DNA from: Paraburkholderia phytofirmans OLGA172
GTDB lineage: Bacteria; Pseudomonadota; Gammaproteobacteria; Burkholderiales; Burkholderiaceae
Length of the DNA: 64,000 nt
Assembly: GCF_001634365.1 (NCBI RefSeq)
Contig: NZ_CP014579.1
Coordinates: 930,001 to 994,000 of the forward strand
Reading direction: 5' to 3'
The notes beneath the pieces were generated by a model, which was not told the DNA's origin, searched no databases, and saw only the letters and a list, made by a program, of their open reading frames with translations. Positions within the stretch are counted from its first letter, which is position 1. The number at the start of each line of letters is the position of its first letter. A program made the translations under genes and the position numbers. This document shows positions 6,516-56,801 of this stretch, piece after piece.

Positions 6516-6781
6516 GAGCCAAAACAAATTCCTTTCGAGATAGCTTTGGGCAGCCGGACAAAGAGGGCAGCGTTCTCTGCGCGCATGTTCAATGCGCGAG
6601 GGGTTCATGCCGAAGCAGTCGGCGCAAAGAAGTCGAGTTGTCTGACAGGAGTGCTGAGCATCTGCGCCGGGGAAGCAAGGCAGGCCAGCACGGCAAACCG
6701 CTCGCTACCCGGGAAGGGCGGCGTGCGTGGAGTCGGGAGACGCATCGAAACCGTGTCGCATCCGAAGGCGGCCTTCCGTAA

Positions 6782-7822
<1,041 letters not shown>

Positions 7823-7850
7823 GTTAGGCAGCAACGCGGTGGCGAGAGGC

Positions 7851-7875
7851 CTTGCAGCACGCGCTGCGGGTTTTT
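7851..7875 (+). terminator. attenuator between binding protein and membrane subunits
   Basis: A GCAGC-ACGC-GCTGC hairpin, extended by wobble pairs, is followed by GGGTTTTT. It sits 30 bases after the binding-protein stop and 87 before the DctQ start. Partial termination here would give the excess of binding protein over permease commonly seen in such operons. Confidence 0.5.
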
Positions 7876-7961
7876 GGCGCCGCGCGGTTTTCTGAGCTTG
7901 TGGTCGTTGGCAGGATTCCTGAGGATTAAATATAAGTCCACCGAATGCAAGGATGGGGTCA

Positions 7962-8441
7962 ATGAGATTCATGAAACGCCCAAATGATTTTCTCTTCCGT
8001 GCGCTGGTTGTCGTCGCATCGGCGAGTCTTGCCACGCTGTGCCTGTTGGTGATTTATAGCGTTGTGATGCGCTATGCCTTCAGCGACGCACCGGATTTCG
8101 TCGAGCCTATTGCCCTCTTGCTGGTGATTGTGATCGCCATGTTCGGCGCCGCGCTCAAAGTTCGCGAAGGCGGCCACATCGGGCTTGACTCGCTGGTCAA
8201 GAAATTGCCGCCGAAAGGTCAGGTGATCGCCCATGCGTTCCAGCATCTTTGCCTGATCGTGTTGGCCGTGGCGATTTTCTTCGGCTGCTGGCAGATGGCG
8301 GAGACGACGCTGGACGACAGGATTCCGATCCTGGGCCTCCCGGAGGCGCTTCGTTATTTGATTCCGGTCATTGCCAGCGCCTGCATCGCTCTGTTCTCGT
8401 TCGAGAACCTGCTGGCGCTTTTCGCACAGAAACAAAAATAG
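7962..8441 (+). CDS. TRAP transporter small permease (DctQ family)
   Basis: Small integral membrane subunit of the TRAP transporter, 159 residues with four hydrophobic segments. The chosen ATG (MRFMKRPND) has AAGGA eight bases upstream; an ATG at 7953 is in frame but overlaps that site. The stop is eight bases from the DctM start, so the two permease genes are tightly linked. Confidence 0.85.
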   Translation: MRFMKRPNDFLFRALVVVASASLATLCLLVIYSVVMRYAFSDAPDFVEPIALLLVIVIAMFGAALKVREGGHIGLDSLVKKLPPKGQVIAHAFQHLCLIVLAVAIFFGCWQMAETTLDDRIPILGLPEALRYLIPVIASACIALFSFENLLALFAQKQK

Positions 8442-8448
8442 AAGAATC

Positions 8449-9801
8449 ATGGAACTTGCCATCCTCTCAGTCAGTTTCCTCGTTTTCCTCGTCTTCGGGG
8501 TTCCGGTTTCGTTTGCGCTGGGACTCTCGTGCGTCCTGACCTATCTGTATGAAGGCTTGCCGGCGGCCACCGCCATGCAGTCGATGATTTCGGGAATGAA
8601 CGCGTTTTCGTTCCTCGCGGTCCCGTTCTTCATTTTCTCCGGCGAACTGATGCTGCACGGCGGCATCGCCGACCGTATCCTGCGTTTCGCGCAGGCCACG
8701 GTGGGTCATTTTCGCGGCGGGCTTGGCATGGCTAACGTGGTCGCGTGCACGTTGTTCGGCGGCGTGTCCGGTTCGCCGACGGCGGACACGTCCGCCATGG
8801 GCGGCGTCGTCATTCCGCTGATGAAGCGCGAAGGCTACAGCGCGGCCTATGCGGTCAATGTGACAACCCATTCGTCGCTGGCGGGTGCGCTGATGCCCAC
8901 GTCGACGAACATGATCATCTATGCGTTCGCGGCCCAAGGCATCACCGGAACGTTGAACGGTCACCCGATGAGCGGCGTGTCGATAGGCGATCTGTTGTTT
9001 TCGGGTCTATTGCCGGTGCTGTGGGTGATGGGTTTCGTGCTCATCGCCGCGTACTGGCAGGCGGTCAAGTTCGGCTATCCGCGCCGCGCTGACGGCTCGA
9101 CCGAATTGCAGCGCTTTCCTGGCTGGTTCGCGGTGGCCCGCACATTCCTCGGCGCGTTGCCCGGCTTGATGGTGATCGCGATCATTCTGTTCTGCGTGGC
9201 GAGAGGCATTGCCACCGCGACGGAAGCGGCGGCCATTGCCGTGGCTTATTCACTGGTGTTGACCATCGTCATCTATCGCACGATGACGATGAAGAAGCTC
9301 TTTCAAGCACTGTCGAAAGCGGCTAAAACCACCGGCGTGGTGCTGCTGCTGATTGGCGTGTCGAACATGCTGCGCTACCAGATGGCCTATCTGGAGATTC
9401 CCGACGCAATCGAACACATGCTCGACGGAGCCACGAGCCTGCCCTGGCTGATGCTGCTTTACATCAACGTCATCCAGATCTTCCTCGGCACGTTCGTCGA
9501 CATGGCGGCGCACATTCTGATCACTACGCCGTTGTTCCTGCCGATGGCGATGCACGCCGGCGTTGGCCCCGTGCAGTTCGGGATCATGATTTTGCTGAAC
9601 TGTGCATTGGGTCTCGTGCATCCGCCGATCGGTTCGGTGCAGTTCATAGGTTGCGCGATTGGCAATGTGTCGATAGGTGAAACTACCAAGGTGGCGTGGC
9701 CTTATTACCTGGCTATCTTCAGCGCGATCAACATTGTGACTTACGTACCGATGTTTTCGACTTGGTTGCCTAGCCTGATCAATGGCCACCCGGTGTTTTG
9801 A
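8449..9801 (+). CDS. TRAP transporter large permease (DctM family)
   Basis: Large translocation subunit, 450 residues, with many hydrophobic segments in the duplicated layout of the IT superfamily and conserved glycine-rich hairpins such as GGVSGSPTADTSA near residue 103. The start at 8449 gives the usual N-terminus beginning directly with a membrane helix. With the two upstream genes it forms a complete DctPQM system for uptake of a sugar acid; a porin follows 73 bases downstream. Confidence 0.9.
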   Translation: MELAILSVSFLVFLVFGVPVSFALGLSCVLTYLYEGLPAATAMQSMISGMNAFSFLAVPFFIFSGELMLHGGIADRILRFAQATVGHFRGGLGMANVVACTLFGGVSGSPTADTSAMGGVVIPLMKREGYSAAYAVNVTTHSSLAGALMPTSTNMIIYAFAAQGITGTLNGHPMSGVSIGDLLFSGLLPVLWVMGFVLIAAYWQAVKFGYPRRADGSTELQRFPGWFAVARTFLGALPGLMVIAIILFCVARGIATATEAAAIAVAYSLVLTIVIYRTMTMKKLFQALSKAAKTTGVVLLLIGVSNMLRYQMAYLEIPDAIEHMLDGATSLPWLMLLYINVIQIFLGTFVDMAAHILITTPLFLPMAMHAGVGPVQFGIMILLNCALGLVHPPIGSVQFIGCAIGNVSIGETTKVAWPYYLAIFSAINIVTYVPMFSTWLPSLINGHPVF

Positions 9802-9874
9802 ACGCTTGTTTAAGCGCCGGCGCTGGTGAGGCACTTCCTGCGATAAAGAACAAATTTTTTACAGAGGAGCAGAA

Positions 9875-11074
9875 ATGAAAAAGGTAATAGCAACCTCGGC
9901 CCTTGGGTTGGTCGCCCTCGGCGCGCACGCTCAAACCAGCGTGACGCTGTACGGGATCGTCGACACGGGGATCGGTTATCAGAGCAGCTCGACGTCGCTC
10001 GGTTCGACGACGGGCGGCCGCTCGGTGACCAAGATGATCAACGGCATCTGGGCAGGCAGCCGCTTCGGCCTGAAGGGCGCCGAGGACCTGGGTGGCGGCA
10101 CGAAGGCGATCTTCCAGTTGGAAGAAGGCTTTAACAGTGCAACCGGCGCGCAGTCCGTCTCGGGTCTGGGGTTCAACCGTCAAGCCTATGTCGGCTTGGC
10201 CAATGCTACCTACGGTTCGTTCACAGCTGGCCGCCAGTACACGTCGTACTACACGCTGCTGTCGCCCTATAGCCCGACCACGTGGCTGACGGGCGCGTAC
10301 GGCGCACACCCGGGCGATATCGATTCGCTGGATACGGTGTATCGCGTGAATAACTCGCTGGTGTACACGTCGCCGAGCATGTATGGCCTGACGGTGAGCG
10401 GTTCGTATGCGCTGGGCGGCGTGGCGGGTAAAACCAATGCCGGTTCGACGTATAGCGCGGCGATCCAGTACCTGAACGGTCCGTTCGGGATCGCAGCAGG
10501 CTATCAGCGCATCAATAACTCGACGCTTGGGGGCGGTGCGTGGGGCGCTGACTCCACGACATCGAATAACGGCGCGCAGGCGGGTGTGTCGGGCATCAAT
10601 AACGGCTATCAGACGGCGCAGGCGCAGCAGCGGGTTGCGGTGACGGCTGGCTATACGTTCAGTTCGCAATGGGACGTCTCGTTCTCGTACTCGAACGTGC
10701 AATACATCCCGGGTGTCAACTCGTTCTTCCACGGCGAGGCGATCTTCAACACGGCTGGTGCAGTGCTGCACTTCAAGCCACTGTCGGCGGTGGACCTGGC
10801 TGCCGGCTATAGCTATACCCGCGCAACAGAGTCGAATGGTATTACGAGCGCGGCCAGCTATCAGCAATTCAACCTCTCGCAGTACTACAGTCTCTCCAAG
10901 CGCACCGGTCTGTACGCGCTGGAAGCCTATCAGCGTGCAAATGGCCAGACGCTTGGGACGAACGGCAAGAGCATCATCAACGCAACGGCCGATATCGGCG
11001 ACGGCCAGAACACCGCGCCGTCCTCGTCACGCAGCCAGTTTGCGGCTGGTGTAGGCATCATTCACCGGTTCTGA
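9875..11074 (+). CDS. outer-membrane porin, Burkholderia general-porin family
   Basis: Trimeric 16-strand beta-barrel porin, 399 residues. It has a classic signal peptide (MKKVIATSALGLVALGAHA, cut before Gln-Thr), the mature start SVTLYGIVDTGIGY and a C-terminal phenylalanine (IIHRF) as used by the BAM machinery. GAGGAG sits six bases before the ATG. Placement after the TRAP genes suggests it helps the same substrates cross the outer membrane, perhaps by read-through. A GC-rich hairpin follows the stop. Confidence 0.92.
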   Translation: MKKVIATSALGLVALGAHAQTSVTLYGIVDTGIGYQSSSTSLGSTTGGRSVTKMINGIWAGSRFGLKGAEDLGGGTKAIFQLEEGFNSATGAQSVSGLGFNRQAYVGLANATYGSFTAGRQYTSYYTLLSPYSPTTWLTGAYGAHPGDIDSLDTVYRVNNSLVYTSPSMYGLTVSGSYALGGVAGKTNAGSTYSAAIQYLNGPFGIAAGYQRINNSTLGGGAWGADSTTSNNGAQAGVSGINNGYQTAQAQQRVAVTAGYTFSSQWDVSFSYSNVQYIPGVNSFFHGEAIFNTAGAVLHFKPLSAVDLAAGYSYTRATESNGITSAASYQQFNLSQYYSLSKRTGLYALEAYQRANGQTLGTNGKSIINATADIGDGQNTAPSSSRSQFAAGVGIIHRF

Positions 11075-11097
11075 CCGGCGAGGGTAGCGAGTATCGC

Positions 11098-11119
11098 GGC
11101 GGCATGTCGTTATGCCGCC
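11098..11119 (+). terminator. hairpin after porin gene
   Basis: GGCGGCAT-GTCGTT-ATGCCGCC, a perfect eight-base-pair stem 23 bases after the porin stop, without a clear T-run. It may be a terminator used from either strand or an RNA 3'-end stabiliser; the porin and the tautomerase gene converge here. Confidence 0.45.
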
Positions 11120-11219
11120 ATAGCGACGCGTTTCAGATGCGCGTCGCCCAGAAGTATCCGCTGCGCGCGCAACGCGCGCAGCATTTCCAGCGCCGCTCGA
11201 CCTTCGAGCCAATGCGCAC

Positions 11220-11411
11220 TCAGGCGTCCGCTTCGGACCACAAACGCCCACCCGTTGCCCAGTTTTCGCGTTTGACGTCGGTGAGAATAATGTCGACGGA
11301 GTTCGGCTCGACGCCGAGCGAGTCGCAGGTCGCTTTGGTAATGGCTTCGACGAACTGGCGTTTCTGTTCCAGCGTGCGGCCTTCGAAGAGTTCGATATGA
11401 AACGTGGGCAT
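11220..11411 (-). CDS. 4-oxalocrotonate tautomerase-family protein
   Basis: A 63-residue protein of the tautomerase superfamily. After Met removal it begins with the catalytic Pro1 (Pro-Thr-Phe-His-Ile-Glu-Leu-Phe-Glu-Gly-Arg). The family's arginine in the FEGRTLEQKR helix and the compact beta-alpha-beta length are kept. Such enzymes form hexamers and move double bonds in unsaturated keto acids. The start at 11411 is fixed by the need for Pro1. It is 37 bases downstream of the class II aldolase, so the two are probably one transcript, but no pathway is evident. Confidence 0.85.
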   Translation of the reverse strand: MPTFHIELFEGRTLEQKRQFVEAITKATCDSLGVEPNSVDIILTDVKRENWATGGRLWSEADA

Positions 11412-11448
11412 TGCATGACTCCGTGATGCGTGACGGTGAGGTGTGAGT

Positions 11449-12225
11449 TTAATCGCGGTACGTCCGATCGAGCCGGTCGAGCTTGCGTAACAATGCGGGC
11501 CATTCCAGCGCGCCTTCGATCGCACCGCCGTCGACCAGCTGGTCGGCTGTGCGTGCGGCTACGGCATCGCTCGGCACGACGAGCTTGCTGCCGCATGCTT
11601 GCGCCTGCAACTGGATTTCGCAGGCCTTGATCAGCGTCGCCATCAGTACATAGGCTTCGGCGACGGTGCGGCCGGCGGTCAGCGTGCCGTGATTGCGCAG
11701 CAGCATGGCCGGTTTGTCGGCGAGATGCGCGACGAGGCGCTCGCCTTCGGTCGGCGTAAAGGCGAGACCTTCGTAGTCGTGATACGCGAGGTGGCCGTAA
11801 AAACGCAGCGCGTGTTGCGAGGCCGGCAGCAAACCGGCCGGTTGAGCGGAAACCGCTACGCCTGCCGTATTGTGCAAGTGCATTACGCAGAAGGCATCGG
11901 CGCGGGCCGCGTGCACGGCGGCATGCAGCGCGAAGCCGGTGGCGTTGACCGGATGCTCGCTCGCGCCGACGACATTGCCTTCGATATCGATCTTCACCAG
12001 GTTCGATGCGCATACTTCGTCGAACGCGAGACCGAACGGATTGATCAGGAAGTGGCCGGGTTCGCCGGGAACGCTGGCTGAGATATGCGTGTAGATCAGA
12101 TCGTCCCAGCCGTTGAGCGCCGCGAGCCGATAGGCGGCAGCCAGGTCGACGCGGGTCTGTTGTTCGGCTTCGGACATCGGCCCCGCTTCGGCGACACGGC
12201 CGGCGGGCGTGTGGGTGAACGACAT
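11449..12225 (-). CDS. class II aldolase/adducin-family protein
   Basis: Zinc-dependent aldolase or decarboxylase fold, 258 residues. Metal-ligand histidines are visible in MHLHNTAG and NHGTLTAGRTVAEAY. An AGGAGA Shine-Dalgarno sequence precedes the ATG at 12225. Members split or decarboxylate sugar phosphates or aromatic precursors; this one lacks obvious markers for L-fuculose- or L-ribulose-phosphate enzymes, so the substrate is unknown. A 13-base tandem array lies between this gene and the urea transporter upstream. Confidence 0.85.
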   Translation of the reverse strand: MSFTHTPAGRVAEAGPMSEAEQQTRVDLAAAYRLAALNGWDDLIYTHISASVPGEPGHFLINPFGLAFDEVCASNLVKIDIEGNVVGASEHPVNATGFALHAAVHAARADAFCVMHLHNTAGVAVSAQPAGLLPASQHALRFYGHLAYHDYEGLAFTPTEGERLVAHLADKPAMLLRNHGTLTAGRTVAEAYVLMATLIKACEIQLQAQACGSKLVVPSDAVAARTADQLVDGGAIEGALEWPALLRKLDRLDRTYRD

Positions 12226-32341: not shown

Positions 32342-33292
32342 TCATGAAGTCCACGCGCGCGCCCCGACCAGCATCCCCGTTTGCGTGAGCGCGTCCCACC
32401 AGATCACGCGCAGCAACGGCGCCTGCTGGGCAATCAGCAGCGCCTGCACCGGATCGCTCTCGACAAAATGCGTGACGCCGCCGCGCAATGCCGCCGCAGC
32501 CTTGTGAGCGGCTGCGCCGGCGGCACTTTCATCATGCGTGCCCGGCGTGCGCATCACCAGTTGCAGATGACCGAAGCCGTGCCGCGCGAGCCACGCTTCG
32601 GTGCGCGCGCGATCCAGTTCCGGCCGGCCGGTGATGATCGTGCGCACGCGTTGCAGATCGATGTCCGGCAGCACCTCGAACGGCAACAGCGCGTCGCGTT
32701 CGGCGAGTGCAGCGGCCAGATCCTCGTCGTAGCGCGCGAGCGGCACGTCGGGTAGCAGAATGCCGTCGAGATCGATCGCATAGGTGGCGTATTCGTGATC
32801 GTCGGCCATGGCGGGCGCAGCGCCCGCTTCAACGCGCTCCCAGTCCTCGCGATAACGCTCGGTGTAGGCCTGGCGCTCCCACGGAAACAGCGCGAAGTAA
32901 CCACGGGCGTCGATTGCGTAATCGGGTTGCGTGCGGCTCAGGTCGTCGACCGCGGCGGTCAGTGTCCTGACGTCGAGGCCATGCTGCTGAAGAAATGCAA
33001 TGCAATCGGTCAGCGTAAAGCCGCGCCCCGCGATGTCTTCGCATAGCAGCACTTTCGAACCCGCGGGCGGGATCGGCAGCGTCGAATCCCAGGCGACCGT
33101 GCGCGACTGGCGGTCGTAGCGCAGAAATGCGACCGGCGTGCCGGCCGCATGCGAAACCATCAGCGCAAGCGGCGCGCCGCCGCGCAGAATACCGATCGCC
33201 ATCGTGAAGCGCTCCGCCAGCAACGCGGGCTGCAGCGATTCGATCCAGTGATCGAGTTGTTCGTACGTCAGGGGCAAAACCGGCTTGTTCAT
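32342..33292 (-). CDS. phosphoribosyltransferase-HAD phosphatase fusion
   Basis: A 316-residue protein. The N-terminal half resembles type I phosphoribosyltransferases: GILRGGAPLA at about 34-43 and a PRPP-loop-like EDIAGRGFT at 85-93, with the usual TTG replaced by AGRG. The C-terminal half has HAD motif I DLDGILLPD (Asp174, Asp176) and a TGRPE motif-II region. The start at 33292 gives a standard N-terminus; longer frames run into the antisense of the CAGGCA repeat and are not real. It converges with the nuclease-helicase gene, stops four bases apart. A nucleotide salvage or modification role is plausible. Confidence 0.72.
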   Translation of the reverse strand: MNKPVLPLTYEQLDHWIESLQPALLAERFTMAIGILRGGAPLALMVSHAAGTPVAFLRYDRQSRTVAWDSTLPIPPAGSKVLLCEDIAGRGFTLTDCIAFLQQHGLDVRTLTAAVDDLSRTQPDYAIDARGYFALFPWERQAYTERYREDWERVEAGAAPAMADDHEYATYAIDLDGILLPDVPLARYDEDLAAALAERDALLPFEVLPDIDLQRVRTIITGRPELDRARTEAWLARHGFGHLQLVMRTPGTHDESAAGAAAHKAAAALRGGVTHFVESDPVQALLIAQQAPLLRVIWWDALTQTGMLVGARAWTS

Positions 33293-33563
33293 GACTCGTA
33301 TGGCGTCGCGTCGAGCGTAGGGCGGGTGTCCCGTAGACGGAGAGCGGCGGGCGGCGCAACGCAGCGGCAGGTCCTCGTTTTTGAGACGGAGAAATTTGGC
33401 GATATTATGCCTGCGGTTCAATGTCGCGCGTCGGGGGTGACGCGCGTCGCTGGACGGGGTGGGCCGCAAAGGCCGGCGCCGCGGCCGGTAGAGGGCGCGG
33501 CAGGCTGAGCCGGCGCAGCGTAGAACCGCCCGCAAAATAACGAGCGATGGAAAAAACAAGCAG

Positions 33564-34202
<639 letters not shown>

Positions 34203-48610: not shown

Positions 48611-48626
48611 ATGACAAAAACGTCAT
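48611..48626. promoter_or_regulatory. ATGAC-N6-GTCAT dyad in the divergent promoter
   Basis: ATGAC-AAAAAC-GTCAT, a perfect five-base inverted repeat with six-base spacing, 113 bases upstream of the response regulator and 72 upstream of the DUF5666 gene. The arm spacing matches the CusR/HprR box of E. coli (CATTACA-N6-TGTAATG), though the arm sequence differs. It is a candidate site for the adjacent regulator. Confidence 0.45.
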
Positions 48627-48723
48627 GAACGGCGCGGCGCGGCCACGTAGAATGGCCGGCATATCCACGTCCACATCCATGACCCACGCCCACGGCGGCG
48701 CTCGGGGTTGGAAGCCAGCCACC

Positions 48724-49395
48724 ATGAGCATCCTCGTCATTGAAGACGACCCGAAAACCGGCGACTACCTGAAGAAGGGGCTGCGCGAAAGCGGCTACGC
48801 GGTCGACCTGGCGCGCACCGGCACGGACGGGCTGCACATGGCGCTCGAACACGCGTACGACCTCGTGGTGCTGGACGTGATGCTGCCGGGCATCGACGGT
48901 TGGGAAATCATGCGTGCGCTGCGCGCGCGGCGCGATCTGCCTGTCATTTTCCTGACCGCGCGTGATCACGTCAGCGACCGCATCCGCGGCCTCGAACTCG
49001 GCGCCGACGATTACCTCGTCAAGCCGTTCTCGTTCACCGAGCTGGTGTTGCGCATCCGCACGCTGCTGCGCCGCGGCGTGATCCGCGAGAGCGATGTGTT
49101 CGAGATTGCCGACCTCAAGCTGGACGTTCTGCGCCGCAAGGTCACGCGCGAAGGCGTCGAAATTCCACTGACCAATAAGGAATTCATGCTGCTGCATCTG
49201 CTGGTGCGACGGCAGGGCGAAGCGCTGTCGCGCACGCAGATCGCCTCGGAAGTGTGGGATATGAACTTCGACAGCGACACCAATGTGGTCGACGTCGCCG
49301 TCAAACGGCTGCGTGCCAAGATTGACCATCCGTTTGAAAAGAAGCTGATTCATACGGTGCGCAGCATCGGGTATACCTTCGGCGACAGCTCATGA
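48724..49395 (+). CDS. OmpR-type response regulator (CusR/HprR-like)
   Basis: A 223-residue regulator: receiver with IEDD, phospho-acceptor Asp in [13 protein letters not shown] and lysine in LVKPFSF, then an OmpR winged helix with [12 protein letters not shown] and the recognition stretch [15 protein letters not shown]. It matches the heavy-metal/HOCl regulator group (CusR, CopR, HprR, IrlR). Its stop overlaps the kinase start by four bases. The divergent DUF5666-b561-molybdoenzyme genes are likely targets. Confidence 0.9.
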
Positions 49396-50795
49396 AACTG
49401 TGGAACGAACGTTCGTTGACGGCTCGCACCACAGTGTTGTTCGCCGCGATCGCATGCGTGGTGATCGGCACGCTGGGCGCGTATTTCTATCGCTCTGCCC
49501 AATTGTCGTTGCAGCGCCGCGCGGACGTGGTGCTCACCGGCCGTGTCGAGCATTTCAGCCGCATCGTGCGCGATCTCTATTCGGTCAGCGAATTGAAGAA
49601 CCGGCCTTTGCTGTTCGAGACCATGCTCGGCGCGGAGCAAGACGTGCTGCTGTTTCGCCGTCCGGGCGAAGCGCCGTTTATCGACGTGAACCCCGGCAAC
49701 ATTGCGGTGCCTGCCCTGCAGGCCGGTGCGGAGAACCGCTTGCCGACGCTCCCGGACATCCGCCAGACGATGTTGCCGAATGGCGTGCCGGTTCACTGGG
49801 CGATCGCCGCCGTCAAAGCACGCGAGGACGGCAGCGAGGTCGAAGTGATCGCCGCGCATCCGATGACTCAGGAAGCGCAGATGCTGGCCGCGTATCGCAA
49901 TCGCATCGTGCTGGCTACGCTCACCGGCATGCTGGCCGCGACGCTGCTCGCCTACTACGTGCTGCGCCGCGGCTTGCGGCCGGTGCGCGAGATCGCTGCG
50001 CGGGCGGCGCAGATCAGTCCGGCGAGTTTGTCGGTGCGGCTCGACAGCGAGGCCGCGCCGGTCGAATTACGTCAGCTCACGCACGCCTTCAATGCCATGC
50101 TCGACCGTCTCGCCGATGGCTATCAACGCCTCTCGCAGTTTTCCGCCGATCTGGCGCATGAAATCCGCACGCCTGTGGGCGCCTTGATCGGCCAGACCCA
50201 GGTGACGCTCGCCAAACCGCGCGACGTCGATGAATATCAGCAATTGCTCGAATCTAATCTTGAAGAGCTGAGCCGTTTGAGCCACATCGCGGAAAACATT
50301 CTGTTTCTCGCGCACTCGGACCATGCTGCGCTGTCCATCGACCGCGAGCCGGTCGATCTGCGTGAGGAACTCGTCAGGATCGCAGACTATTTCGAAGGCC
50401 CCGCCGACGAACGCGGCATGCGCTTCACCGTCGAGGCACAGGGCGTGGCGTCGGTCAATCCGATGCTGTGCCGGCGGGCGATCAACAATCTCGTCGTCAA
50501 TGCGGTGCGATACGGCGCGAACGATACGGTGGTGCGGTTGAGCGGCACGCAGGACGAACAGGGCGCGACAGTGGTGGTGGTGGAAAACGACGGTGCGCCG
50601 ATTCCCGACGAGCAACTGGACCGCCTGTTCGATCGCTTCTACCGCGCGGATGCGGCGCGCAGCGCGTTCACCGAATCGAGCGGGTTAGGGCTCGCGATCG
50701 TCAAGGCGATCATGCATCTGCACGGCGGCACGGCGCGCGTGGTATGTCCGGTGCCGGGTGTGGTGCGCTTCGAATTGCGCTTTCCGGGCGCCTGA
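49392..50795 (+). CDS. heavy-metal-type sensor histidine kinase
   Basis: A 467-residue membrane kinase with transmembrane helices at about 14-36 and 168-190, a periplasmic domain of 130 residues, HAMP ([15 protein letters not shown]), HisKA with [14 protein letters not shown] and HATPase motifs [11 protein letters not shown] and [12 protein letters not shown]. It belongs to the CusS/HprS group. The periplasmic domain has no Met/His-rich copper site that I can see, so a redox or other signal is possible. Confidence 0.9.
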
Positions 50796-50854
50796 AACCG
50801 ATCTTCGCGTCAGCACTGATGGCGTGGCTGCCTGGCCGGGCAGGATCGACGATT

Positions 50855-51463
50855 CTAAAAATCCTGCGTGCCTGGCGCATTCAATGGGCAATGATGTGCA
50901 TCGCTTAATGCCCTCAACCCAGTTGTGTTGATATCCAGTGAAAACGCGGCCAGACCGCATTTACCGGTCTGTGCCGGACCGATAGGCCGTAACACGAGCC
51001 CCAGGCGACGATAGAGTCGATCCATGCTGGATGGCGCGACACCTACTAATTGGCGGATTCCCTGGCTTTGGGAACGAATAAAGATCAAACGAAGGAGTTC
51101 GCGCATTCTTTGCATGTTGCAGGCGACGCCGCTGTCGAAAGTCGTGAACCGGGATAGCTCCCACGTGCACGAATCGCTGATCAGCGGAATGGAGCACAAG
51201 TCCGGAAAAATTTCGGCGAGCAGATAAGGCTGAGTCGTGGGCAACAATCGTGCATAGCCACAGATACTGCGATCCTGCTTATAGGCGATGACGCAGGTGG
51301 TGGTGTTCCGGTCAAATTCGTCCCATTCCTCGATAGTGCCGGAGCTGGCTGACGGCAAGTCCCATTGCATCTCCTTGACGAATACCGTGTGCCGATACCT
51401 GCCAAGTTGCTGCTTTTCGGGAGGAGTCAGCTGTTCCATTGTGGTAAATACGATCTCTTCCAT
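50855..51463 (-). CDS. acyl-homoserine-lactone synthase (LuxI family)
   Basis: Makes N-acyl-homoserine lactone from S-adenosylmethionine and acyl-ACP. The 202-residue protein keeps the family's invariant residues: Arg24, Phe28, Trp34, the acidic pair in EWDEFD (48 and 51), Arg in GYARLLPT, the phenylalanine in EIFPDLC and Glu/Arg in WELSRF. With the ATG at 51463 the first residues fall at canonical LuxI numbering, supporting that start. It lies 15 bases downstream of luxR on the same strand; no rsaL is between them. Signal chain length cannot be predicted. Confidence 0.93.
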   Translation of the reverse strand: MEEIVFTTMEQLTPPEKQQLGRYRHTVFVKEMQWDLPSASSGTIEEWDEFDRNTTTCVIAYKQDRSICGYARLLPTTQPYLLAEIFPDLCSIPLISDSCTWELSRFTTFDSGVACNMQRMRELLRLIFIRSQSQGIRQLVGVAPSSMDRLYRRLGLVLRPIGPAQTGKCGLAAFSLDINTTGLRALSDAHHCPLNAPGTQDF

Positions 51464-51478
51464 GAGTCTGCTCGATAG

Positions 51479-52204
51479 CTAAAGTAGTCCGTAGGCAATG
51501 GCATAGGCCGCTGCACTGGCCTTGGATGGGGCGTTAAGTTTTCTCCTGCAATTCTTTAGATGAAAATTCACCGTATCGACGGAAATGGCGAGGGCGTTCG
51601 AGATACCCTTGGCTGACTTTCCATCGGCGGTCCAACGAAGGATTTCAATTTCACGCTGGGTAAGTTTGGCTTCGGTGGCGGTGCTGCTCTGCCGGCCGGA
51701 AATCCGGCTGATGCAGAACATCGACAACTGGCCGAGCGCCAGGAGAAAAGGTCGGAGGACTTTGATCTCACTGGCGCCTAGCGACGTGCGTTCTCTCGCC
51801 AATGAGTAAACGCCGAACTGGCCGCGAGCGTCCCAGCAGGGTTGTGAAATGCCGATTGCGAGTCCTGCCGATTTGGCTTCGTCCCATAAGTGTTTTGTGT
51901 TCGCAAAGAGGCCATCATTCCATATCGCGGGAGTCAGGTCGCCCAACTCGAGTTTGGCTATCGGATCTATTCTCAGGTACTCCCTTTCCCTGTATCTCGA
52001 CACCCATCGCTCGGGATAGGAGCTCTTGATAACGATGTTTCTGGAACAAAAAGGAACGCGATTGACGTAGCCAAACGCACAATACGAGAATCCGAGATCC
52101 AGAGAGACGCGCGACAGTATGGAAAATACACGGTCAATCTCTTCGCAGGTCTGTAGTTCGAGGAACAGATCGCTCCACCATTCAGATAGGTCCCGGGGCA
52201 TCAA
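51479..52204 (-). CDS. LuxR-family autoinducer-dependent regulator
   Basis: A 241-residue quorum-sensing receptor. The N-terminal autoinducer domain keeps the signature residues Trp67, Tyr71, Asp80-Pro81 and Trp95, so it should bind an acyl-homoserine lactone. The C-terminal GerE helix-turn-helix (LTQREIEILRWTADGKSAKGISNALAIS) is intact. It is the first gene of a luxR-luxI transcript and is divergent from the ATP-grasp gene, with a 358-base gap that holds a dyad at 52432-52474. Base composition is notably more AT-rich than neighbouring genes. Confidence 0.93.
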   Translation of the reverse strand: MMPRDLSEWWSDLFLELQTCEEIDRVFSILSRVSLDLGFSYCAFGYVNRVPFCSRNIVIKSSYPERWVSRYREREYLRIDPIAKLELGDLTPAIWNDGLFANTKHLWDEAKSAGLAIGISQPCWDARGQFGVYSLARERTSLGASEIKVLRPFLLALGQLSMFCISRISGRQSSTATEAKLTQREIEILRWTADGKSAKGISNALAISVDTVNFHLKNCRRKLNAPSKASAAAYAIAYGLL

Positions 52205-52431
52205 AAGGCTCCGCTATGCAAGTTTGATTACAGACTTCGTTTTATAGGAGTGGTTTTTGTTCCATAGCGTGTCTAGTGGTTGCAGAAATGATGATTGACA
52301 TCTCGTTGGTCATTTTCGGTTTATATCGTAAATCATAAATTCGTCATATTTAGCCGAAAGCTGCAATTTCCTACCAGTTTTGGGCTGTGACGTATCGGCG
52401 CATGGGCGTTCGAGTGCCGTGCCCAGTGTCA

Positions 52432-52474
52432 CTAATCAGGCAACTACCAATCGCGGGAGCTGTTCCGTGATTAG
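52432..52474. promoter_or_regulatory. dyad with lux-box-like core upstream of the ATP-grasp gene
   Basis: CTAATCA (52432-52438) and TGATTAG (52468-52474) are perfect inverted arms. At their centre is CTACC-N6-GGGAG (52444-52459), a CT-N12-AG dyad of the kind bound by LasR/CepR-type proteins. It lies about 90-130 bases before the GTG start. Upstream sequence is very AT-rich (52321-52380 has 19 G/C in 60) and suits a promoter. The match to lux-box consensus is loose. Confidence 0.4.
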
Positions 52475-52562
52475 CTTCATGTAATTGTTTGAACTATCGG
52501 ATTGGTGTGAATGGATCGATAACCAATCGACAGTTTTGCCTTTACTTATGAAGGAGCTTGCC

Positions 52563-53906
52563 GTGGCGCAATCGTATTCGAATATTTGTGATTTTCCGGT
52601 CTTCGATCCCGATAAGGACTGGATCACACTGGAACAGAATCATGCGAGTGATGAATTTAATCGAGCCTGTTCGTATGTGAAGAGTCGCGCTGCGGAAGAC
52701 AACCTGGTCATGAGCTTTGAGGGGAACAACTCACGTCCCTATCCGGTTATGTCGGGGGTGTGTGCGCTTCACGCGGGAACGGAGGAAATTCTGGCGCCGC
52801 GAATCGGGTCTATATTTAATGCTTTGCAGAAGATCGTTTCGGCATATCGCGCGGATGCCAATCTCCAGGAGTTTCTGGGGATTCCGAATCAGTTGAACCA
52901 ATGGGTCAAGGAGGACACGGAGCCGGCCAACAACAGGGTCGATTTGTGCCGCTTCGATCTGATGGGACGCACGCTGTCGGAGCTCAAGATCATTGAATTC
53001 AACTGCAATGCGCCCGGGGGGATTGTGTACGCGGGCATGATCAACCGATATTGGCGCGAGGCGCCTTTTTCCTCCTCGCTGATCGAATCGTGGGGCGGCG
53101 GCGCGTCTACTTTCGAACAGAGTGACTGGGTTGCCACGTGGTTGTCATCGCTCGCGGATCGGCGCGGCTTGCGCGATATCGAAGGTATTGGCCTATTGCA
53201 TCCGGCAGGCGGAAACATTCTCGAATTGCCGCATCTGAAGAAGCGGATCGAAGCGTGCGGCCTTCGCTCGGCCATGCTGACGCCAGAGCAGCTCAGCCAG
53301 ACCGGCGATCACACATTCCAGCTTGCTTATTTGAAGTACGGCGTGCAGCGCGCGATTCAGGACATCGGACAATGGGAGCAGTTCTGCCGGAGTGTGGTCG
53401 AAGGCCGGCTCGTAATCCAGTCATCGCTGGCGGGGCGTTGGATCGGCGACAACAAGTTGTGTGTCGCAGTCATGTCCGATCCGCGCTTTTCCTATCTGTT
53501 CAACGACGCAGAGCGCGCGGCGATCGGCACCATCATCCCGACGAGCCGCAAACTCGGCGACGGTATCAGTCAACGGGAAGTGATCCAGTACAAAGACGAT
53601 TTTGTCGTCAAGCATCCGTACGGAACGCGCGGTGTGTCGGTTTTCGTCGGCCGGGACTACGATCAGATCGCGTGGACGGAACTGGTCGGCAAAACTTCGT
53701 CGCTCGGTCATGTGGTTCAGCAATATGTCGACTCGGACTTTGAGGTCGACGGAGACACCTGCTTCAGGGATCTGGTGGTGATGTTGGCGAGTGGCGCGAT
53801 TGTTGGATACGGATCGCGAGTGAGCCGGGCGCGAAAAGTCAATATCGCCCAGGACGGTCGAAAGATGGCGGTGTTGAGTTCGCTGCCAGTACCGGTAATT
53901 CACTGA
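52563..53906 (+). CDS. ATP-grasp-type ligase, glutathionylspermidine-synthase-like
   Basis: A 447-residue protein that reads as a member of the glutathionylspermidine-synthase-like ATP-grasp enzymes, which join a carboxylate to an amine using ATP. Supporting stretches are RFDLMG with LKIIEFNCNAPGG (nucleotide/metal acidic residues), then NKLCVAVMSDPRF, RAAIGTIIPTSR, DDFVVKHPYGTRGVSVFVG (lysine and glycine-rich loop) and the closing VQQYVDSDF. The GTG at 52563 is preferred: AAGGAG lies six bases upstream. It is followed at once by an MFS exporter and faces luxR. The product is unknown. Confidence 0.62.
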   Translation: MAQSYSNICDFPVFDPDKDWITLEQNHASDEFNRACSYVKSRAAEDNLVMSFEGNNSRPYPVMSGVCALHAGTEEILAPRIGSIFNALQKIVSAYRADANLQEFLGIPNQLNQWVKEDTEPANNRVDLCRFDLMGRTLSELKIIEFNCNAPGGIVYAGMINRYWREAPFSSSLIESWGGGASTFEQSDWVATWLSSLADRRGLRDIEGIGLLHPAGGNILELPHLKKRIEACGLRSAMLTPEQLSQTGDHTFQLAYLKYGVQRAIQDIGQWEQFCRSVVEGRLVIQSSLAGRWIGDNKLCVAVMSDPRFSYLFNDAERAAIGTIIPTSRKLGDGISQREVIQYKDDFVVKHPYGTRGVSVFVGRDYDQIAWTELVGKTSSLGHVVQQYVDSDFEVDGDTCFRDLVVMLASGAIVGYGSRVSRARKVNIAQDGRKMAVLSSLPVPVIH

Positions 53907-53915
53907 TTCAAGGGG

Positions 53916-55139
53916 ATGCGATTCGGTGCGCTCGCCTGTGGGGATTTCAGGCTGTTTACTTTCGGTAACTGCCTGTCGTTGGTCGGAACCTGGGTGCAGC
54001 GGATCGGCACAGGCTGGCTTGCGTGGGAGTCGAGTCATTCGAGTGTGTGGCTCGGCTTGCTCGCGTTTGCCGATCTTTTCCCAACCGTGCTCCTTGCGCC
54101 GATTGCCGGCGTGATGGCCGACCGTTGCGACAAACGCCGCGTCATTCTCTATTGTCAGTTCGTCGCGATGGCAACGGCCGTTTTGCAGGCCGGTCTGATT
54201 TTGAGCCATGCCAATTCCATGGAGGCGCTCTTTGCGGTGACGTTGATGTCGGGCATTGCCAGCGCGCTGTGCCAGCCCGCTCGCCTTTCCTGGATATCGA
54301 CTCTAGTGCCGCCGGGAAAGCTCGCGTCCGCGGTCGCGATCAATTCTCTATGCTTCAATCTGGCGCGCTTCGTAGGACCGGCTTTGGCGGGCGCGATGCT
54401 TCTGAAGCTCGATCCCTCCGCGTTGTTTCTGCTCAATGCGCTGAGCTATGCCACATTCATCGTCGTCATTCTTCGAATTCCGCCTGCTGCCCCGCGCTCG
54501 ACCGAAAAGATTCCGCCCTCGCCATGGTTGCGTGAGGCGACGGAAGGATTGCGCTACCTCGTGTCGGACGCGCCGTTACGGGCAACCTTCCTGATCCTGA
54601 CCGCGTCCGCGGTTTGCATTCGCGGGATCCCGGACCTCGCGCCTGCCATTGCCGGCGAAATGTTGCGGCGCGGCTCACAAGGGTTTGCGTCTCTCGTTGC
54701 CGCAGCGGGGGCAGGCGCGATCGCGGGCGGCGTATGGTGCAGCGGGCGTGACGCAACCAAACCGTTAGCAAGATTGATCGAGCGGCACGTAATGGCCGCT
54801 TCGCTCGGCACGCTTGCCCTGGCGTTGACGCACGACTTCCGCCTGGCGGCCGCGCTGTTCTTCACGATGGGTTTCTCGATCGTCGTGACCGGAATAGGCG
54901 CACAAACGCTGATTCACCTGTCGGTTCCGCAGGCGTTGCGCGGACGCGTGCTCGCGCTATACGGCATGGTCTATCGTGGCGGGCCGGCGCTCAGTGCATT
55001 GTGGCTCGGCGCGTGCGCGCCGCTTTGGGGCTTGCGCCTGGCGCTGGGCGTTGGCGCACTGCTGTGCATGGTGGCGTACGGTGTCACGACGATTCGAGTT
55101 TGCGCGGGCGCTCGCCGCCAGGATCCGCCGGCGCAATGA
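53916..55139 (+). CDS. MFS exporter (MFS_3/EntS-like)
   Basis: A 407-residue, 12-helix transporter of the MFS_3 group that includes the enterobactin exporter EntS. Motifs: GDFRLFTFGNCLSLVGTWVQ at the N-terminus, GVMADRCDKRR in loop 2-3 and ARFVGPALAG in helix 5. It starts nine bases after the ATP-grasp gene stop and AAGGGG lies immediately before the ATG, so translation is probably coupled. Export of the ligase product is the simplest role. Confidence 0.82.
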   Translation: MRFGALACGDFRLFTFGNCLSLVGTWVQRIGTGWLAWESSHSSVWLGLLAFADLFPTVLLAPIAGVMADRCDKRRVILYCQFVAMATAVLQAGLILSHANSMEALFAVTLMSGIASALCQPARLSWISTLVPPGKLASAVAINSLCFNLARFVGPALAGAMLLKLDPSALFLLNALSYATFIVVILRIPPAAPRSTEKIPPSPWLREATEGLRYLVSDAPLRATFLILTASAVCIRGIPDLAPAIAGEMLRRGSQGFASLVAAAGAGAIAGGVWCSGRDATKPLARLIERHVMAASLGTLALALTHDFRLAAALFFTMGFSIVVTGIGAQTLIHLSVPQALRGRVLALYGMVYRGGPALSALWLGACAPLWGLRLALGVGALLCMVAYGVTTIRVCAGARRQDPPAQ

Positions 55140-55268
55140 CCGGCATCCACCGGTTGAATCGGTTCGTGGGCGACAGGGCTTCGAGCAAACCGGCAATGGC
55201 GATACCGGGATGATTGCGCAACGGGTTGCGGCGGCGCAGTGCCTGCCAACGTGCAGCACGCCCAGGCG

Positions 55269-56801
55269 TCAGCCGCCCGGCGCGTCCGCATCCGGACGGT
55301 TCGCGTAGTGCGCACGTTTTTCCTCATACATCAGCAGATCGGCGCGTTGCACGCCGGCTTCGAGCCGGTCGCCGCGCCGGCACGTCGCAGCACCCATCGA
55401 AAGGCTCAGCAGCGAACCCGGATAAAACTGGTTGTTCAGATCGACCAGCTGGCGGATCGCATCGACCATCGCCGCGCCGCCTCGCTCGTCGGTGTCGGGC
55501 AACAGGATCGCGAACTCGTCTCCGCCGATGCGCGCCGCGTAAAACGGCGCGTCTGCCGCCTTGGCCAGGACTTCGCCGGCGCGCCGTAACAATGCGTCGC
55601 CGGCCGCGTGGCCGAGCTGGTCATTCACGCGTTTGAGGCCGTTCAGATCGGCCATGATAATGGTCACCGGCCACGGACCCTTGCGCTCCAGCCGGTTCAG
55701 TTCATCGACATAGAACGAGCGGTTGCGCAGCTTGGTCAGCACGTCATGCTTGCCGAGGAATTCCAGGTACGCTTCGGCCTTCTTGCGCGCCGTGATGTCG
55801 GTGAGGGCCACCAGCACCAGGTCCCAATCGCGTTCATGACCCGGCAGGACGGAGAACTGCAGGTGTACGTGCACCTCGTTGCCGTCGAGCGAATAGTTGA
55901 GCACTTCGCGCTGCTGGAACAGCTTGCCGTCCCATAGATCGATCAACTGCTCGCGGAAATGCGGCCGCATGTCGTCGCGGAAAACGTCCGGCAGGCGCGC
56001 CAGCAGCGTTTTCTTGTCTGGCGCCACGAACATGCCGAGCGTGTGCTGGTTCACGTCGAGCACGTGAATTTCCTGCATGCAACGGTCGACAAACTCGGGA
56101 TGCACGTCGGTGAACACCCGAAAATCGCTGATGCCTGCCGAGCGCGCCCCGTCGAGCAGACGCTTGACCGCGCTGAAATCTTCCACCCACAACGATACCG
56201 GTGAATGTTCGAACAGGCCGCGCACATACTGTTCGGCAAGCGTCACGCGATGCCGCGCGCCTTCGAGTTCGGTAATGTCTTCGACCGATACGAGCACGCG
56301 GTCCCAGCGGTCTTCATGGCCGGGCAGCACGGCGCCCTTGAGCAGCACGTCGAGGCGCCGCCCGCCGAGCGTGTAGTTGACGGTCTGGCTCGTGAACTGG
56401 ACCTGGCCCGCCCATAGCTGGCATAGCTCTTCGAGGTGGGTCTTGAGCATGTCGTCGCGGAACACCGAGCCGAGATTGCTGGTGAGCGTGTCGAAATCGG
56501 CGGCCTCGAATTGCGTCAGCGTTTTCTGGTTGACCTTGATGACGCGGATGCTGTGCGCGCATTCGGCGACAAGGGCCGGATAGTCGGCGAACTGGGCGCG
56601 CAGATCGGTCACACCTTGTGCCCTCCATTTGTCGAATAGCGCGCGCACGCCGCTGAAGTCTTCGAGCCAGAGCGAGACAGGCGCGAGTTCGAACATTTCG
56701 GAATCGTCCCCCGATCCCCCAAGGGGACTTCCTTCGGGGCGGGGGACTTCCTGCTGGCCGTTGTTGGCGGGCGCTGAGTCGCGTGGGAGGGTGTCCAGCA
56801 T
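55269..56801 (-). CDS. PAS-PAS-GGDEF diguanylate cyclase
   Basis: A 510-residue cytoplasmic protein. Two tandem PAS-like domains (about 36-180 and 190-340) are clear duplicates: each has SPVSLWVEDFSAVK or PVSLWLEDFSGVR, a VNQxTL motif, VFRDDM and VLPGHE. A GGDEF domain (about 345-500) has the intact active site IGGDEF and so should make cyclic di-GMP; no EAL domain is present. A 47-base repeat encodes residues 17-32 if translation starts at 56801; a start at Met36 (MFELAP, after GGGGGA) would leave the repeat in the leader. Confidence 0.87.
   Translation of the reverse strand: MLDTLPRDSAPANNGQQEVPRPEGSPLGGSGDDSEMFELAPVSLWLEDFSGVRALFDKWRAQGVTDLRAQFADYPALVAECAHSIRVIKVNQKTLTQFEAADFDTLTSNLGSVFRDDMLKTHLEELCQLWAGQVQFTSQTVNYTLGGRRLDVLLKGAVLPGHEDRWDRVLVSVEDITELEGARHRVTLAEQYVRGLFEHSPVSLWVEDFSAVKRLLDGARSAGISDFRVFTDVHPEFVDRCMQEIHVLDVNQHTLGMFVAPDKKTLLARLPDVFRDDMRPHFREQLIDLWDGKLFQQREVLNYSLDGNEVHVHLQFSVLPGHERDWDLVLVALTDITARKKAEAYLEFLGKHDVLTKLRNRSFYVDELNRLERKGPWPVTIIMADLNGLKRVNDQLGHAAGDALLRRAGEVLAKAADAPFYAARIGGDEFAILLPDTDERGGAAMVDAIRQLVDLNNQFYPGSLLSLSMGAATCRRGDRLEAGVQRADLLMYEEKRAHYANRPDADAPGG
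56706..56752. repeat. 47-bp dispersed repeat, copy B (start of GGDEF gene)
   Basis: Second copy of the element at 31482-31528, 43 of 47 bases identical. It lies in the opposite orientation relative to its host gene, in the first codons or the untranslated leader of the GGDEF gene. Read in frame it encodes a Pro/Gly/Ser-rich stretch without a stop. Confidence 0.8.

Follow-up and report, generated by a model that had tools for sequence, protein, structure and literature searches.

A putatively quorum-controlled ligase-exporter operon in Paraburkholderia phytofirmans OLGA172: possible retained half of a nonribosomal peptide locus

Why should a complete LuxI/LuxR quorum-sensing pair be encoded back to back with an ATP-grasp ligase and an exporter of the major facilitator superfamily (MFS)? 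The question is raised by a locus of Paraburkholderia phytofirmans OLGA172 that occupies positions 50855 to 55139 of the stretch analysed here, 64,000 nucleotides long (contig NZ_CP014579.1, positions 930,001 to 994,000, assembly GCF_001634365.1; hereafter the window). Our answer, which we hold tentatively and at slightly less than even confidence, is that a nonribosomal peptide synthetase (NRPS) natural-product locus has left these four genes as its retained, quorum-gated half and that the strain is a quorum-gated, protected non-producer. The features on which the argument rests are the following (bp, base pairs; AHL, acyl-homoserine lactone):

50796 to 50854, strand not applicable: short gap between a cusS-like kinase gene and luxI; three relatives hold a GNAT-like gene, an NRPS gene and a HAD hydrolase gene here
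50855 to 51463, minus strand: luxI, AHL synthase of 202 amino acids (Autoind_synth 52.9 bits, curated Pfam cut-off 24; solved AHL synthases match by sequence, the best being 3p2f at E 1e-27)
51479 to 52204, minus strand: luxR, AHL-type receptor/regulator of 241 amino acids from TTG 52204, alternative start ATG 52201 (Pfam Autoind_bind 102.2 bits, GerE 65.8 bits)
52444 to 52461, plus strand: lux box CTACCAATCGCGGGAGCT, whose 16-bp core (52444 to 52459) fits CT-N12-AG
52480 to 52485, plus strand: TGTAAT, presumed -10 element of the ligase-MFS operon
52551 to 52556, plus strand: AAGGAG, presumed Shine-Dalgarno sequence of the ligase gene, judged from the sequence and found at the same place in relatives
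52563 (likely start, GTG) to 53906, plus strand: ATP-grasp ligase of the glutathionylspermidine-synthase superfamily, 447 amino acids
53916 to 55139, plus strand: MFS_3 exporter of 407 amino acids (Pfam MFS_3 165.7 bits), with an ortholog in 8 of 144 genus genomes

A sequence-only reading of this DNA had described an intact, co-oriented LuxI and LuxR pair divergent from a ligase and an exporter, and this arrangement holds: the four reading frames are intact, their domain matches lie over the cut-offs, luxR and luxI share a strand at a distance of 15 bp, and the ligase and MFS genes follow each other after 9 bp on the opposite strand. By its domain LuxI is an AHL synthase, so that acyl-homoserine lactone production is predicted, and LuxR matches by sequence the structures of RhlR, SdiA, a QscR-type protein and LasR. 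The label "EntS-like", given earlier to the exporter, is loose, since the protein reaches 95.2 bits with the NCBIfam EntS model, for which the cut-off is 324. Neither Rfam families nor tRNAs were found in the window. A second, stronger LuxI is encoded elsewhere in the window genome (G000:C2:693119-693640, L001; 127 bits) with an adjoining LuxR-like reading frame, and matches at about 28% to the LuxI of the module recur across the genus.

Does the signalling pair control the operon that faces it? Between luxR and the ligase gene, a CTACCA-R-N5-GGAGCT block is present in all seven loci with a ligase, and in each of them, including that of genome G117, which has no luxI, TGTAAT starts exactly 36 bp after the first base of the box. 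Across three divergent lineages, 14 of the 18 box positions are identical (at most 11 in dinucleotide shuffles, 0 of 60 reaching the observed value), as are 26 of the 44 positions of the promoter block as a whole (at most 16 in 30 shuffles). The CT-N12-AG core, which we take to be the las/rhl form of the lux box, is supplemented in the window by a CC/GG inner dyad. If transcription starts 7 bp after TGTAAT, as we assumed, the centre of the box lies about 41 bp before the start, and a centre near -41 is the usual place for activation by LuxR. The exact box pattern has a single match in the window genome, that of the module; two more sites differ by one mismatch, a class that is meaningless given that a reversed control pattern yielded 23 matches with at most one mismatch. 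In the eighth locus (genome G074), from which the ligase was lost, the aligned block and that of the window agree at 27 of 44 positions, the AG of the box is gone and TGTAAT is altered, so that the candidate target promoter of LuxR is degenerate there. Because the lux box stands at a fixed spacing from TGTAAT in seven of seven loci, direct control of the ligase and exporter by LuxR is supported, and we consider quorum control of this operon, as read from its promoter, very probable and the best-supported step of the proposal; the density control suggested by the sequence-only reading therefore appears likely.

How widely is this gene set shared? Among 144 genomes of the genus, the ligase occurs in seven and the MFS gene, at E 1e-80 or better, in eight; all eight MFS loci hold this LuxR and are flanked on one side by the gene of a cus-type kinase and on the other by that of a diguanylate cyclase, and the co-occurrence of LuxR and MFS is more than chance. 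Counted over the eight Paraburkholderia loci, LuxR and MFS are each present in eight, ligase and luxI each in seven and the NRPS in three. In G117 the luxR stop is directly followed by a small flanking gene, and in G074 only a short N-terminal piece of the ligase is left, followed by an MFS frame that is intact. The small gene beside several of the loci resembles a glyoxalase gene by eye, and Pfam gave it no family. The neighbourhood is thus conserved beyond close strains, in seven further Paraburkholderia species genomes, and the ligase-MFS pair is found in another genus, there too beside an NRPS. In genome G195 the arrangement is convergent; LuxI gave no match there, nor did it in control genomes, so this search does not show its absence (the same query matched in the window genome).

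The chromosomal position invites an explanation with no secreted product at all, in which a housekeeping thiol or polyamine enzyme and a pump would be tied to the adjoining heavy-metal two-component system. The cop/cus-type regulators do adjoin the module and score over the NCBIfam cut-offs, and the ligase itself has a GSP_synth match and a GspS-like fold. Nevertheless, the module is restricted to seven or eight of the 144 genomes and its promoter carries a lux box. Moreover, when window positions 48625 to 56801 are set against the matching region of P. domus and G074, synonymous divergence (dS) is 0.7-1.5 in the module and 0.19-0.29 in the kinase and cyclase genes, the module reaching three to seven times the value of its flanks, which means that the module has its own history. 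We regard the housekeeping explanation as very improbable. The same values suggest that module alleles move between lineages, as if exchanged through conserved flanks.

What the module may have been part of is indicated by its fuller forms. P. domus, Paraburkholderia sp. BL21I4N1 and P. bryophila carry, after luxR and luxI and on their strand, a GNAT-like gene, an NRPS gene and a HAD hydrolase gene, an extension that five of the eight loci, including that of the window, do not have. The GNAT-like gene is present in exactly these three of the 144 genomes (in P. domus it scores 19.8 bits with Acetyltransf_9, whose cut-off is 25; Pfam assigns the other two copies to no family). The synthetases, of 2195-2213 amino acids, contain condensation domains, one adenylation and one carrier domain (Pfam), as well as TIGR01720 over its NCBIfam cut-off, which we take to be epimerisation-associated; by eye, the order is condensation, partial condensation, adenylation, carrier, epimerisation and condensation, with no thioesterase. 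The window locus holds no NRPS, and no ortholog of this NRPS was found in the window genome, where, among the matches listed, the best reach 34-39% identity over a part. Across different sequenced Paraburkholderia species, loci with the NRPS, without it and without luxI are found at one and the same place in the chromosome. Two of these facts had not been foreseen by the sequence-only reading, namely that the fuller form has an NRPS absent from the window genome and that one related locus lost the ligase itself.

Two of the NRPS-less genomes, G090 and G105, bear the trace of a deletion. In both, a fragment from the 3' part of the HAD gene survives, which begins at the same base relative to BL21I4N1 and P. 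bryophila and at the same distance past the luxI stop (that of G105 measures no more than 22-23 bp, E 5e-4 to 3e-6). Since the junction between luxI and the HAD fragment is identical, G090 and G105 share one deletion. Apparent GNAT remnants in the two genomes (63-66% over 67 amino acids) were rejected, as they coincide with luxI and stem from an over-long query frame. No deletion scar was found in the window, nor any junction common to the window and G074, and we infer NRPS loss in the window, G074 and G117 from distribution. The window locus, in our judgement, probably derives by reduction from a quorum-controlled NRPS locus.

Is the remainder of such a locus still of use? One could suppose that what was left after NRPS loss is functionless and disappearing, and the absence of NRPS, luxI and ligase each from some loci, together with the degenerate promoter block of G074, would agree with this. 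The divergence between G090 and G105 follows their shared deletion, and their omega values (ratio of nonsynonymous to synonymous rates, NG86) consequently reflect selection after it: 0.139 for the ligase, 0.207 for the MFS gene, 0.078 for luxR and 0.233 for luxI. The corresponding values in the NRPS-bearing pair BL21I4N1 and P. bryophila are 0.161, 0.209, 0.135 and 0.297, and the flanks of G090 and G105 are more constrained (cusS 0.062, cyclase 0.065). Trees and rate ratios were obtained from gap-free columns only, G117 being without luxI and P. domus without Nas there. All four genes were therefore under purifying selection after the deletion, and no relaxation is seen; this range of 0.08-0.23, the four intact frames of the window and the conservation of the promoter block in NRPS-less loci as well speak against decay, which we consider improbable.

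We lean instead to export or self-protection in a strain without the assembly line, because none of the eight loci is without LuxR and MFS, whereas NRPS, luxI and ligase are each missing from some, and because purifying selection follows the one deletion that can be demonstrated. Gene pattern and selection would fit a state in which the receptor and the candidate protective gene (protection by the MFS protein is predicted) are kept where production genes are absent. According to this proposal, LuxI would make an AHL, and LuxR bound to it would occupy the box at 52444-52461 and turn on the ligase-exporter operon. In the fuller relatives, signal, assembly line, ligase and exporter would form one density-controlled unit. 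The exporter would most likely expel a peptide-type compound of the kind that belongs to such loci, and in the window strain that compound would come from neighbours or from another pathway. The ATP-grasp enzyme would activate a carboxylate as an acyl phosphate and couple it with an amine, which would tailor or inactivate compounds of that class. The response to AHL, the direction of transport, the chemistry and the protective role are, like NRPS loss in the window lineage, what we infer.

The ligase is the member of the set that bears most directly on the alternative. Its Pfam match is marginal (GSP_synth, 30.5 bits for a cut-off of 29.3), and its model fold resembles YgiC, glutathionylspermidine synthetase and glutathione synthetase; match and fold together place it in the glutathionylspermidine synthase (ATP-grasp) superfamily, so that the structural comparison proposed by the sequence-only reading turned out in its favour. 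NCBIfam assigns the protein no family, and a single-sequence search gave no related solved structure. A start at TTG 52485 was rejected in favour of GTG 52563, since AAGGAG precedes the latter and the relatives start there. In actinobacteria, ligase relatives adjoin natural-product biosynthetic genes, as seen with Pfam on the neighbours at 7 of 24 loci, the other loci being clustered only (alignment A1 comprises 31 of the 42 collected proteins).

These relatives, and the constraint on the ligase, would suit stand-alone biosynthesis, in which the quorum-controlled ATP-grasp enzyme links a pair of small building blocks and the MFS protein secretes the resulting pseudodipeptide or other amide, the NRPS of the relatives being an optional elaboration of the same product. 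Weighing on the other side, G074 has lost the ligase with its MFS frame intact, and no dedicated building-block gene was seen between the cusS-like and cyclase genes of the window. We see stand-alone synthesis as a close rival, possible although somewhat doubtful. As to the claim of the sequence-only reading that ligase and exporter make and secrete one amide, the link to small molecules is upheld by the NRPS beside luxI in three of eight loci and by the neighbours of the ligase relatives; joint production of one compound is not established, and export or self-protection accounts for the pattern of loss no less well.

More distant members of the ligase family were also collected. A search in 398 genomes of the family, drawn from a larger group, gave 32 matches, six of which reach E 1e-40. 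In other Burkholderiaceae, the more distant relatives L072, L073 and L075 (genomes G366, G431 and G262) have alpha-oxoamine synthase, CitE-like and MFS genes near them by eye, and may belong to other natural-product loci. Three rhizobial plasmid records (22-23%) were set aside as too distant for this module. These plasmid relatives include L095 (Mesorhizobium amorphae plasmid pM0123d, 5167-9341) and L090 (S. fredii GR64 plasmid, 6567-11635); one rhizobial ligase gene lies near a LuxR-family regulator gene, and one adjoins genes for an MFS transporter and for another protein of ATP-grasp type. In Streptomyces sp. CBMA156 (L037, 6678-9296), a tandem pair of ligase-family genes adjoins a free-standing adenylation domain, a pyridoxal-phosphate decarboxylase and a Mur-ligase-type gene, in what looks like an uncharacterised peptide-type pathway. 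Found beside several kinds of natural-product genes, the ligase family is a lead for genome mining.

Several points weigh against a protected non-producer. The constraint on the ligase in NRPS-less strains and its actinobacterial relatives beside biosynthetic genes fit synthesis equally well. The MFS gene of G074 may no longer be gated by LuxR, and the promoter of that genome suggests that loss of the ligase is accompanied by decay of the gate. G090, G105 and G117 have other NRPSs (best 32-33% over long stretches), which could supply a substrate in trans. As the window, G074 and G117 bear no scar, the NRPS may instead have been gained elsewhere, and loss deduced from the host tree is weakened by module alleles that appear to move between lineages. 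A more far-reaching form of the protected non-producer proposal, in which Paraburkholderia lineages repeatedly became AHL-gated resistant non-producers by deleting the NRPS and keeping a LuxR-gated protective ligase-MFS operon against the same compound class from neighbours, with the ligase as a quorum-induced inactivating enzyme and G117 as a pure eavesdropper, is in our view unlikely.

Apart from this locus, the window contains, at 33663-33770, a perfect tandem array of 18 copies of the 6-base unit CAGGCA. It lies inside a minus-strand frame (32342-33820), where it is read as an Ala-Cys repeat, and its 6-base units preserve the frame; the repeat stretch is possibly only an over-long start.

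How does the locus compare with known systems? No description of this gene set was found in the open-licence full-text literature, outside which most subscription journals lie, and the accessible part of PMC7186400 does not appear to cover it. Each part is known by itself, and what sets the locus apart is their combination and the pattern of loss. In structural alignments, the window ligase shares 11-15% identity with the YgiC/YjfC and glutathionylspermidine synthetase entries, from which it differs in having no amidase domain, a quorum-type promoter and a natural-product neighbourhood. With Cp1B, described in the accessible part of its paper as the pseudodipeptide-forming ATP-grasp ligase of the E-64 pathway, it shares 11%, and Cp1B is fungal and without lux genes (PMC12568646).

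For the locus as a whole, comparable states do exist elsewhere, as far as the accessible parts of two papers describe them, and are represented by pneumococcal blp "cheaters", in which bacteriocin export is absent and the immunity response retained (PMC4739721), and by AHL eavesdropping of strains that do not make the signal, demonstrated in the setting of Burkholderia thailandensis (bactobolin) and Chromobacterium violaceum (PMC5964356). The present locus resembles the blp cheater loci, as presented there, in keeping the quorum receptor and, in their case, the immunity part beside broken bacteriocin export; it differs in that blp is Gram-positive and uses a peptide pheromone and ribosomal bacteriocins, whereas here we have an AHL, an NRPS, a ligase and an MFS exporter, and immunity is only proposed. 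If our proposal is true, one can test directly what selection preserves of a quorum-controlled antibiotic system when production has ceased, and the locus may show which parts bacteria retain once product-making stops. With the LuxI/LuxR antibiotic systems of B. thailandensis and C. violaceum, to the extent that the same source covers them, it shares an AHL circuit linked to a locus for a secreted compound; unlike them, it is known from genes alone, and its ligase and exporter persist under a lux box without an assembly line.
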